Shown here: positions 10,774-18,594 of the stretch, in pieces
Numbering within the stretch: position 1 is the stretch's first letter
How the letters are laid out: every line of letters begins with the position of its first letter
Origin: Armatimonadota bacterium
GTDB taxonomy: Bacteria; Armatimonadota; Fervidibacteria; Fervidibacterales; Fervidibacteraceae
Assembly: GCA_025060305.1 (NCBI GenBank)
Contig: JANXCD010000004.1
Span: 1-35,904 of the forward strand
Reading direction: 5' to 3'
DNA length: 35,904 nucleotides
Translations under genes and position numbers: made by a program
The notes under the pieces: model-generated
Told to the model about the DNA's origin: nothing
Database searches by the model: none
Seen by the model: only the letters and a program-made list of their open reading frames with translations

Positions 10774-11742
10774 ATGCTTGAACTGCAAAAGTTGAAAGAA
10801 TTGGCGAAGGAATGGAGAGGGAAAAAAGTGCTCGTTCTTGGCGACTTGATGCTTGACGAATATATCATCGGCGTTGCTGAAAGAATTTCTCCTGAAGCGC
10901 CAGTCCCCGTGATTTTATGCGAACAAAGAAGTTACGGTGCTGGAGGAGCAGCGAACACAGCGATAAACCTGATTGCTTTGGGCGCAGAAGTTATAATTTG
11001 CGGTCTTGTAGGTAATGATTGGGCTGGCGAAAAGTTGAAGCAAATTTTGAGCGAAAGCGGCGCTGACATAACTGGAATTTTGATTGACCACAGTCGCCCA
11101 ACAACTCTCAAAATTCGCATCGTAGCCCAAACCCAACAGGTTGCACGAGTTGATGTTGAAAGTAGAATGCTTTTGAACGGTAGTATGGAAGCCTCTTTGC
11201 GTGGAATTGCCCGTGAATTGGGGCGTGGTTGTGACGCTATCGTCGTTTCTGATTACGCAAAGGGTGTCGTCACATCGGGCTTGCTTTCTGGATTGCGTGA
11301 ACTTAAAGGTCAAACTTTGCTCATATCAGGACCGAAACCGAAAAACATTTGGCACTTTGCTGGATTTGATTACTTAAGCCTTAACCGAAGCGAGGCTATG
11401 GCTTCGGTTAACGGTGTAGAATCTTTCATTGAGGCTGGCAAAAAAATTTCAAGTCAACTTGAACTTCAAGGGCTTGTCATAACGCTTAGTGGTGAAGGCT
11501 GCGCTTTATTTGCAAATGGCGAGCAGTTAGTTCAATTGCCAGCACTAAGGGTTCAAGTTTACGATGTTGCCGGCGCTGGAGATACTTTCCTTGCAGCCTT
11601 GACGCTCGGTTTAGTTGCTGGTTGTGATTTTGTTGATGCAGCGAAAGTGGCAACAGTAGCAGCAGCGGCAGTCGTCCGAAAAGTCGGAGTAGCCACAACT
11701 ACTGTTGATGAGATGCTACAATTGCTCAAAGGCGCAATTTAG
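10774..11742 (+). CDS. rfaE1: D-glycero-beta-D-manno-heptose-7-phosphate kinase (RfaE1/HldE N-terminal type, PfkB fold)
   Basis: VLVLGDLMLDEYIIGVAERISPEAPVPVI; YDVAGAGDTFLAALTLGL PfkB signature. ORF opens at 10672; ATG 10774 preferred. Confidence 0.85.
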   Translation: MLELQKLKELAKEWRGKKVLVLGDLMLDEYIIGVAERISPEAPVPVILCEQRSYGAGGAANTAINLIALGAEVIICGLVGNDWAGEKLKQILSESGADITGILIDHSRPTTLKIRIVAQTQQVARVDVESRMLLNGSMEASLRGIARELGRGCDAIVVSDYAKGVVTSGLLSGLRELKGQTLLISGPKPKNIWHFAGFDYLSLNRSEAMASVNGVESFIEAGKKISSQLELQGLVITLSGEGCALFANGEQLVQLPALRVQVYDVAGAGDTFLAALTLGLVAGCDFVDAAKVATVAAAAVVRKVGVATTTVDEMLQLLKGAI

Positions 11743-11762: not shown

Positions 11763-11885
11763 TAGGACTTATGCAGTTGGCGTTATTTTTTAGGGGCGGA
11801 CGGAAGTCTGCCCAAAAACATCGCAAAAATTCAACAAAAATCAGGCGGATTTCATCTGCCTTTAACTTCAACTGCGTAATTCCTA
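11763..11885 (+). mobile_element. MITE-like element A (123 bp)
   Basis: TIRs TAGGACTTATGCAGTTG / CAACTGCGTAATTCCTA (15/17 matches); 5-bp direct repeat CAAGA at 11758-11762 and 11886-11890; hairpins GGGCGGAC-ggaa-GTCTGCCC and AGGCGGAT-ttc-ATCTGCCT. Confidence 0.75.
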
Positions 11886-12008: not shown

Positions 12009-13289
12009 ATGGAAGGACTTGAAAGCATAAAAGCAAAAATCAAAACCCTTGAGCAATTATTGCCCATTATTGACGATTTTAGGCGACAAGGGAAGAAAAT
12101 TGTTTTCACGAACGGTTGTTTTGACTTAATCCATATAGGTCATGTCAGTTACTTGGCTCAAGCGAAATTGCTTGGCGATGTCTTGATTGTCGGTCTTAAC
12201 TCCGATAGTTCAGTTCGGGCACTCAAAGGCGAAGAACGCCCTTTGATTCCGCAAGAGGAGCGGGCGATGCTTTTAGCCAGTTTTGCTTCAGTTGATTTTA
12301 TTGTCCTCTTTGACGAACTAACACCTCATCGTCTTATTGAGGCTATCAAGCCTGAAATTCATGTCAAGGGAGGTGACTACGCTGAAGCAGATTTGCCTGA
12401 GGCTCCTTTAGTTCGCTCCTATGGAGGTCAAGTAGTCATTTTGCCGAAAGTTGAGGGACGGTCAACTACGGAATTGGTTTCCCGAATACGAAGTAGGATT
12501 GCTGTCAATCAAATCAAATTGGTTATCGGCATAATTCCAGCGAGATATGCTTCTATGCGATTTCCTGGTAAAGTCCTCGCTGAACTTTGGGGCAAAACTA
12601 TTGTCCAGCATGTATACGAGCGAGCAAAACAAGCGAAAACCCTTAATGATGTCATCGTAGCGACAGACGACGAGAGAGTTAGAAGGACAGTTGAAAATTT
12701 TGGCGGCAAATGCATTATGACTTCGCCCGAACATCCTTCAGGAACTGATAGAATTGCTGAAGTTGCCTCTCAAATTGAGTGTGATGTCGTGGTCAACATT
12801 CAAGGCGATGAGCCTCTCATTGCTCCAGAGGCAATTGATGCTGCTGTCCAACCTTTTATTGATGCACCTTTTTTGAAAATGACGACTCTTGCGACGCCTA
12901 TTGTTGACGAAAGCGAATACACGAACCCAAATGTTGTCAAGGTAGTTGTTAACCGAGAGGGTTTCGCCCTTTACTTCTCACGCTCACCCTTGCCTTTTTT
13001 CCGATTGCAAAGCAAGATGCCAGAAACGCCTAACTTTTTCATTCCCCCAAACGCCCCTGTTCGCCCGCTGCGGCACATTGGGCTTTATGCTTACCGAAGA
13101 GAGTTTTTGCTTCAATTTGCAAAATGGTCTCCTACGGAACTGGAACGAACTGAAGGGTTGGAGCAATTGAGGGCTTTAGAACACGGTGTCCCTATAAAAG
13201 TCATCATCACGAATTACCGAAGCATCGGAGTTGACACTCCAGAAGACTTGGAGCGATTGGAGAAGATGGGAAAGCAAGGCAGTGAATGA
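12009..13289 (+). CDS. Fusion: D-glycero-beta-D-manno-heptose 1-phosphate adenylyltransferase (RfaE2) + CMP-KDO synthetase (KdsB)
   Basis: N-terminal IVFTNGCFDLIHIGHVSYLAQAK...IHVKGGDYAEADLPEAPLV...GRSTTELVSRIRSR; C-terminal GIIPARYASMRFPGKVLAELWGKTIVQHVYERA...VVVNIQGDEPLI...NPNVVKVV...IGLYAYRREFLL. One continuous frame. Confidence 0.9.
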   Translation: MEGLESIKAKIKTLEQLLPIIDDFRRQGKKIVFTNGCFDLIHIGHVSYLAQAKLLGDVLIVGLNSDSSVRALKGEERPLIPQEERAMLLASFASVDFIVLFDELTPHRLIEAIKPEIHVKGGDYAEADLPEAPLVRSYGGQVVILPKVEGRSTTELVSRIRSRIAVNQIKLVIGIIPARYASMRFPGKVLAELWGKTIVQHVYERAKQAKTLNDVIVATDDERVRRTVENFGGKCIMTSPEHPSGTDRIAEVASQIECDVVVNIQGDEPLIAPEAIDAAVQPFIDAPFLKMTTLATPIVDESEYTNPNVVKVVVNREGFALYFSRSPLPFFRLQSKMPETPNFFIPPNAPVRPLRHIGLYAYRREFLLQFAKWSPTELERTEGLEQLRALEHGVPIKVIITNYRSIGVDTPEDLERLEKMGKQGSE

Positions 13290-13446
13290 AACTATAGTTT
13301 TGCACATATTGGAACGCTCTACTTAAGTTGGCTTTCAAAAACTTGTTTAGCAATTATGGGCTGAGGCTAACGGTGTGATAGTGCTTATCAACAAAATTTA
13401 GTAAAGAAAAGCAAAAATTTGGCTACTTGCAAGTTTGGTGAGCGGA

Positions 13447-15441
13447 ATGGAAGAAGTGAAGGCTATTCCGATAAATTTTGAAAAGGTTCAAGTTGAAGCG
13501 AAGTTTCGTTGGTTTGTTTTTATAATAGCGTTTACTTTGGTGATGGCTTTTTCAGTTTTCAGCGGTTGGGCTGCTCTGCTTAGGCATGAGATTTTGGGAA
13601 CGGGTTATCTGCCAAGAGGGATTGTTCCTTTGTTTCTGCTTGTGGTGCTCTTCAACTCCATTGTCAAGATGACATTTCCAAAGTTTGCCTTGAGACGAAA
13701 GGAGTTGATTTTTGTCTTTGCCATCTTGACATCAATTGCTGCTATCCCAGGTCAAGAGTTTGGCATTCACTTTTACCTCAACTTGCTTGGTCTCGTCTAT
13801 TACAGTTCGCCTAAAAGTCAATGGTTCAATCTTATCACGCCTCATTTGCCATCTTGGCTTGTGCCTTCCCTGCAATTTCGTGACCCTGCGATTTTGTGGG
13901 CTTATGAAGGCATGCCAGCAGGAGCGAAGCCACCGCTTAGCGAATGGCTTATCCCTTTGATTTTTTGGACGCCATATTTGTTTAGCATTTACGCTTTGAT
14001 AGTTTGCCTTTGCGGTTTGGTGGCTCGCCAATGGGAAGAACACGAAAGGTTACTTTACCCTTTGACCCAAATCCCGATTGAACTTGCTGGCGATGAAAGG
14101 CAAATCTTGCCTAAGGTTTTTTCAAGTCTGTTTTTCTGGCTGGGATTTTTCATTGCAGCAATTCCAATTTCAATGCGAGGCTTGCACCTTTACTTCCCTC
14201 AAGTTCCTGACCCGCTATTGCAACGAAGTTTTGCCCAACTTTTTGGTTTACCTGCTGGCACACCGCTTTTTGCTTCTGGACCTATGAGCGCTTTCAATGG
14301 TTTACAGGCTCATCTTTACCCTGAAATGATTGGTATCGCTTATTTGCTTTCAACGGAAGTTAGTTTCAGTCTTTGGTTCTTTTTGCTTTTGCGACACATG
14401 GAAGTTGCTATCCGAATAGCGCTCGGTGTTGACATGTATCACTCTGAATTCCTCGCTTTTCAATCCATTGCCTCTTACACTGTGATGGCATTAGCAATTT
14501 TGTGGGTCTCAAGGCGTTACCTATTAGCGATAGTTTCGGACTCAGTTCAATGTTGTTTGAATTGCTTTTCAAAAAAGTCTTCCTCAATGCCACCTGAAGG
14601 ATGGGCTTTCTTTGGCAGCATTTTGGTTTTCGCAGGTTTGATTTGCTGGGCGAAGGTTATAGCGGGTGTCTCAGCGTTTTGGGCTGCTGCAATGCTTTTT
14701 GGGCTTTTGGTTACATCTTTGGTTGTTGCGAGAGTTGTGTCGGAGGCAGGGATTTACATCTACTCAGCACCTTTTAGGGTTAACCAAGTGCTTTTTGACA
14801 TCTTCGGCAAAGACCGAATTGGTGCAAGGAATGTTGTTTTGATGACGGCAATGAGTTGGGTTCAAATAAGGAGCACAGCCACGATGGCTTCTGGCTACAT
14901 TGTTAACGCTTTTAGGTTAACTAATCTTGCTGGACTTTTGCGTTCGTCGTCTGCCTTTTGGATGTTGGCAGCAATTTTGCTTTGTCTTCTCGTTTGTCAC
15001 TTGACTATCCCAACAGTAATTTACACTTACAGCGTTTCCAAATTGAGTTGGTGGGCGCAAAATTCTTCTTTGAACACAACGAATTTGATCGCTCAATATC
15101 TGACAACAACGAGACCACTAACAGTTCACCATTGGCTTGGATTGTTCATCGGCGCACTTACTTGCTGGATGCTCATAAAGATTAGGTTGACATTCATCGG
15201 CTTCCCTTTGCATCCTTTGGGTTTTGTCGCTTGGTATGGCTGGCCGATAGACCGTTATTGGTTTTCAATCCTTATCGGTTGGGCAACCAAATTGGCGATT
15301 TTGAAATATGGTGGTTTCAAAACCTTCCATCGTTTCCGACCTTTGGCTTATGGTCTCATCGTTGGTGGGACAACAACCTTGACTTTCTGGATTTTGCTGC
15401 GCCTTTTTTATCAAACTGCAGCGAGTATAATCGTTGATTGA
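13447..15441 (+). CDS. Large multi-pass membrane protein (DUF6785/OPT-like family suspected)
   Basis: ~664 aa polytopic protein; ATG 13447 within ORF 13435-15441. Family assignment from general resemblance only. Confidence 0.6.
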   Translation: MEEVKAIPINFEKVQVEAKFRWFVFIIAFTLVMAFSVFSGWAALLRHEILGTGYLPRGIVPLFLLVVLFNSIVKMTFPKFALRRKELIFVFAILTSIAAIPGQEFGIHFYLNLLGLVYYSSPKSQWFNLITPHLPSWLVPSLQFRDPAILWAYEGMPAGAKPPLSEWLIPLIFWTPYLFSIYALIVCLCGLVARQWEEHERLLYPLTQIPIELAGDERQILPKVFSSLFFWLGFFIAAIPISMRGLHLYFPQVPDPLLQRSFAQLFGLPAGTPLFASGPMSAFNGLQAHLYPEMIGIAYLLSTEVSFSLWFFLLLRHMEVAIRIALGVDMYHSEFLAFQSIASYTVMALAILWVSRRYLLAIVSDSVQCCLNCFSKKSSSMPPEGWAFFGSILVFAGLICWAKVIAGVSAFWAAAMLFGLLVTSLVVARVVSEAGIYIYSAPFRVNQVLFDIFGKDRIGARNVVLMTAMSWVQIRSTATMASGYIVNAFRLTNLAGLLRSSSAFWMLAAILLCLLVCHLTIPTVIYTYSVSKLSWWAQNSSLNTTNLIAQYLTTTRPLTVHHWLGLFIGALTCWMLIKIRLTFIGFPLHPLGFVAWYGWPIDRYWFSILIGWATKLAILKYGGFKTFHRFRPLAYGLIVGGTTTLTFWILLRLFYQTAASIIVD

Positions 15442-18473: not shown

Positions 18474-18594
18474 TAGGGCTTAGGCGGTTGTGAATGTTTT
18501 GTAGGGGCAGACAATAGTCTGCCCGAAAAAATCACTGCAAAAATTCAACAAATCGGGCGGATTTCATTCGCTACATCCAACTGAGTAACTCCTA
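18474..18594 (+). mobile_element. MITE-like element C (~121 bp), overlapping the nadC 3' end
   Basis: GTAGGGGCAGAC-aata-GTCTGCCCGAAAAA hairpin, AATCGGGCGGATTTCATTCGC second hairpin, ends TAGGGCTTAGGCGGTTG / CAACTGAGTAACTCCTA. Confidence 0.65.

Follow-up and report, generated by a model that had tools for sequence, protein, structure and literature searches.

The hldE2.kdsB locus

The window, that is, the whole stretch of 35,904 nucleotides that was analyzed, carries a fused gene, hldE2.kdsB, on the forward strand at 12009-13289. The gene starts with ATG, stops with TGA and encodes 426 aa in one uninterrupted ORF that is open throughout, as an earlier note on this DNA had described. A heptose-1-phosphate adenylyltransferase domain of the HldE2/HldC type (12069-12491, forward strand, aa 21-161) is followed by a linker (12492-12521, forward strand, aa 162-171) with a TTG codon at 12519 (AAA TTG GTT), and then by a KdsB CMP-KDO synthetase domain (12522-13277, forward strand, aa 172-423). 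The gap between the domains, put at about five residues in the earlier note, is about 10 residues between the two models.

A separate heptose-7-phosphate kinase of the HldE1/HldA type (PfkB family) lies just upstream at 10774-11742 on the forward strand, in its own ORF as had been noted. It scored 288.6 bits against TIGR02198 (rfaE_dom_I), below the cut-off of 345, and was the sole TIGR02198 match at E <= 1e-20 in the genome searched (63% complete). The interval between the kinase and the fusion contains a dispersed repeat of ∼123 bp (11763-11885, forward strand). Its description as MITE-like was upheld by its imperfect terminal inverted repeats (TAGGACTTATGCAGTTG / TAGGAATTACGCAGTTG) and by matches at 40 or more places in the window's genome, including 18474-18594. 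The next gene downstream (13435-15441) encodes a DUF6785/DUF6784 membrane protein of unknown function and is not kdsA.

Domain assignment, conserved residues and structure

The 426-aa protein was searched against NCBIfam, where it scored above the curated cut-off with TIGR02199 (rfaE_dom_II, aa 21-161, 202.5 bits, cut-off 181.5), TIGR00466 (kdsB, aa 175-415, 234.2 bits, cut-off 155.2) and NF003952 (KdsB, aa 172-423, 314.5 bits, cut-off 193). The Pfam assignment agreed. The domain search that the earlier note had called for thus returned the two identities it had proposed, and both domains also exceeded the NCBIfam cut-offs in four further fused homologues. No match to a PfkB kinase domain was found within the protein with Pfam or NCBIfam, which sets it apart from the kinase/adenylyltransferase HldE. 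The window gene is confirmed to join two standard outer-membrane sugar-activating enzymes in one protein.

The substrate motifs listed for BpHldC, TNG, NSD, KG, EXTP and KGG (PMC7993394), were all located in the window protein, at residues 34-36 (TNG), 64-66 (NSD), 73-74 (KG), 103-106 (ELTP) and 120-122 (KGG). The 12 fused proteins compared all share T34, N35, G36, N64, D66, K73, G74 and K120-G122, and NSD is replaced by NTD in some of them. In KdsB of A. aeolicus the catalytic lysine is K19 and the Mg-binding aspartates are D95 and D219 (PMC3149649). The counterparts of the catalytic lysine and of the two aspartates in the window protein are K188, D267 and D409, which are likewise invariant in the 12 fused proteins.

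Comparison with the PDB matched KdsB structures to the C-terminal half and B. pseudomallei HldC (5x9q) to the N-terminal half, over aa 30-163. An AlphaFold model generated from 12 fused homologues had a mean pLDDT of 84.7 and a pTM of 0.60, with both domains confident and the linker at low confidence (pLDDT < 50 at 162-167). The pTM and the low-confidence linker mean that the arrangement of the domains is not established by the model. A fold search with the model returned the CMP-KDO synthetases 1h6j, 3k8d and 2y6p for the KdsB half and HldC 5xf2 for the HldE2 half. From these sequence comparisons we infer that the window protein has adenylyltransferase (ADP-heptose) and CMP-KDO synthetase activities, the C-terminal half being predicted to convert KDO and CTP to CMP-KDO.

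Distribution of the fusion in Armatimonadota

The fusion was searched for in 61 relatives and 292 genomes of the phylum. It is present in at least 14 Armatimonadota genomes, including that of the window (G000), from at least seven families; most genomes of the phylum are without it. Full-length uninterrupted matches were obtained in G002 and G003 (both of the window's family), G004 (of its order), G055, G062, G047, G009, G232, G233, G022 and G008. The G035 gene is also fused, with a longer linker; the search gave two matches and the fusion was recognised on reading the locus. The G056 fusion is open to the end of its contig and the remaining KdsB starts another contig. In G046 (L153), which belongs to the genus of the fused G022, KdsB starts at an ATG of its own, and no HldE2 turned up in the genome.

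The window comes from a fragmented, 63%-complete genome, in which an assembly or sequencing error could have erased a stop codon or frameshift that separated two genes. The same uninterrupted fusion occurs in independent genomes, at 46-76% identity and on different contigs, and the linker diverges between them with the frame never broken. This recurrence rules out an assembly artefact, and an error of either kind is vanishingly improbable. The fusion is therefore real in the window, as had been noted, and the architecture search that had been proposed extends it to at least 13 other Armatimonadota genomes, so that it is not peculiar to this one. It is a new architecture of well-known enzymes, conserved and recurrent. 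The earlier note knew of no characterisation of such a fusion, and no description was found in the literature searched either; coverage of subscription journals was scant and the result is weak evidence of novelty.

Gene neighborhood and pathway partners

The genes are usually ordered hldE1 - hldE2.kdsB - kdsA. Outside the window's order, most loci with fused or adjacent hldE2 and kdsB have hldE1 a short distance upstream. The kdsA gene is directly downstream in the fused G233, G232, G047, G009, G056, G062 and G035 and in the unfused G017, G030, G049 and G265. G002, G003 and G004 keep the fusion but carry the kinase gene and kdsA on contigs other than its own; with its partners dispersed and itself intact, the fusion therefore outlasts the operon there.

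KdsA scored above its cut-off in 19 of the 21 genomes checked, with none above cut-off in the window's genome (63% complete). A KDO transferase was present in 20 of 21, the sole exception being again the window's genome at 63% completeness. The KDO transferase in these 20 genomes and the neighboring kdsA in several relatives indirectly support KDO over a related acid as the substrate of KdsB. The heptose epimerase HldD (TIGR02197) was not found above cut-off in the fused genomes checked and, among the genomes checked, exceeded it only in the unfused G017 and G030. In the fused lineages ADP-D,D-heptose itself may be the form used.

Linker and number of products

The window and its sister species G002 differ by a dN of 0.17 in HldE2 and 0.15 in KdsB, with dS saturated, and by a dN of 0.8 in a 14-codon linker segment in which the frame is kept. 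Between clades the linker varies in both length and sequence. The TTG at 12519, just ahead of the KdsB core, had been singled out in the earlier note for a test of internal initiation, which would yield free KdsB beside the full-length protein, and GTG or ATG codons lie near the corresponding position in G055, G022, G047 and G056. There is no convincing ribosome-binding site ahead of the TTG. G002 lacks both the TTG of the window's linker and any start codon close to the KdsB core, and the linkers of five fused genes (G003, G004, G008, G232 and G233) contain no ATG, GTG or TTG. Free KdsB would therefore not generally come from a standard internal start, and two products are improbable. Post-translational cleavage or non-standard internal initiation may act on the fused protein.

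Adjacent genes, phylogeny and probable origin

The hldE2 and kdsB genes are separate and adjacent in 16 other Armatimonadota genomes; in many others they are far apart or on different contigs. The start codon gives a 4-nt ATGA/GTGA overlap in 11 of the adjacent pairs; two have other overlaps, and in three an in-frame TGA is followed by ATG. The overlap is one base in G033 and more in G228. Apparent fusions with one in-frame TGA in G049, G265 and G230 were rejected: they are neighboring genes, of which the downstream one begins with an ATG of its own.

A two-domain tree was calculated from 51 genomes and 394 columns. The fused genes fall into four groups, requiring four state changes. A single clade of all fused genes was rejected by the AU test (p-AU 1e-5) at a cost of 79.9 log-likelihood units; joining the window's clade to the G055/G062/G035 clade was not rejected (p 0.26). 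In a quick tree of KdsB only, three of the four fused clades were not monophyletic, in one case perhaps owing to the unfused G046, which groups with its fused relatives; single-domain trees lack the power to position all clades.

The tree is unrooted and state changes were only counted, so that the tree alone cannot separate repeated fusion from one old fusion that was later split several times. Because the linkers differ between clades and overlapping pairs are widespread, we favor repeated fusion, with change from adjacent to fused, over the older single event. The join most likely recurred because the two genes were already neighbors overlapping by a few bases. An ancestral operon hldE1 - hldE2 - kdsB - kdsA, with an ATGA or GTGA overlap of a few bases between hldE2 and kdsB, would have needed a small frame change in that overlap to join the two, and this would have happened more than once.

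Fusions outside Armatimonadota

Most of the loci read in the phylum of G293, a genome titled Candidatus Methylomirabilis, combine a GmhA-HldE2 fusion with kdsB beside or near it and hldE1 upstream. Genomes related to G341 have GmhA-HldE2 with adjacent kdsB at L225, L228, L229, L026 and other loci, and G341 itself encodes a GmhA-HldE2-KdsB triple fusion of 638 aa (L221:3401-5314, reverse strand). NCBIfam recognises all three parts, with KdsB above its cut-off and GmhA and HldE2 below theirs. The triple fusion contains the same HldE2-KdsB join as the window protein and likewise has hldE1 upstream, and differs in the extra N-terminal sedoheptulose-7-phosphate isomerase. No paper describing either GmhA fusion was found in the literature searched. 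In a third phylum (that of G301, 118 genomes), none among the matches listed spans both domains.

Comparison with known systems

HldE (RfaE) has the same adenylyltransferase domain and also fuses neighboring inner-core sugar enzymes, with the adenylyltransferase following the kinase there too. HldE combines two steps of one pathway, whereas the window protein pairs the adenylyltransferase with KdsB, whose pathway runs in parallel, and leaves the kinase to a separate gene. In this separation the locus resembles the HldA and HldC pair of Burkholderia pseudomallei (PMC7993394), and the window domain aligns to BpHldC 5x9q; BpHldC is a stand-alone protein (PMC7993394), in contrast to the fused domain in the window. 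The KdsB part is a full-length domain with the catalytic lysine, both Mg-binding aspartates and the same predicted fold as KdsB of known structure (3k8d, 2y6p, 1h7e). The matched solved chains are single-domain, whereas the window KdsB is the C-terminal half of a fusion.

Function and possible benefit of joining

Activation of heptose and activation of KDO are parallel reactions, and neither product is a substrate of the other enzyme. Because the reactions are not consecutive, substrate channelling between the sites is not expected. The coupled activation that had been suggested for the two sugars is thus retained as co-expression at a fixed ratio, to which the overlapping pairs and the operon point, and is set aside as channelling. 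Very probably, judging from sequence, hldE2.kdsB encodes one bifunctional protein that arose by repeated joining of overlapping operon genes, with halves serving parallel pathways. The halves would act independently, tied by a short, flexible and poorly conserved linker, and their pathways would meet at the LPS inner core. The gain would be synthesis of both activating enzymes in a fixed 1:1 ratio and their co-localisation, and it would be kept even where the operon fell apart, for example in the window's own order.

The possibility that the fusion arose neutrally has to be taken seriously beside any such gain. The join of adjacent genes may simply have been tolerated and brought no benefit, with the protein still bifunctional; overlapping neighbors are common and need a single small frame change to become fused, the linker differs by clade in length and sequence, and most of the phylum is unfused. 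We regard this as quite possible. The recurrence of fused clades, and the intact fusion in the window's order where the operon is otherwise dispersed, argue against it. Tentatively, the join may have been selected, having fused independently in several Armatimonadota lineages and in one genome of another phylum, for the supply of ADP-heptose and CMP-KDO in fixed proportion and in one place.

The fusion gives two textbook LPS enzymes an undescribed domain architecture, and its likely origin is visible as coexisting stages, from unlinked genes through adjacent and overlapping genes to the fused gene. Where annotation tools or pathway reconstructions look for HldE or for KdsB on its own, one of the activities can be given a wrong name or overlooked. 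With recurrence, the benefit of joining parallel sugar-activation steps becomes a testable question; if the join is selected, it would act to balance supply for the LPS inner core, a mechanism for which model bacteria offer no known example.
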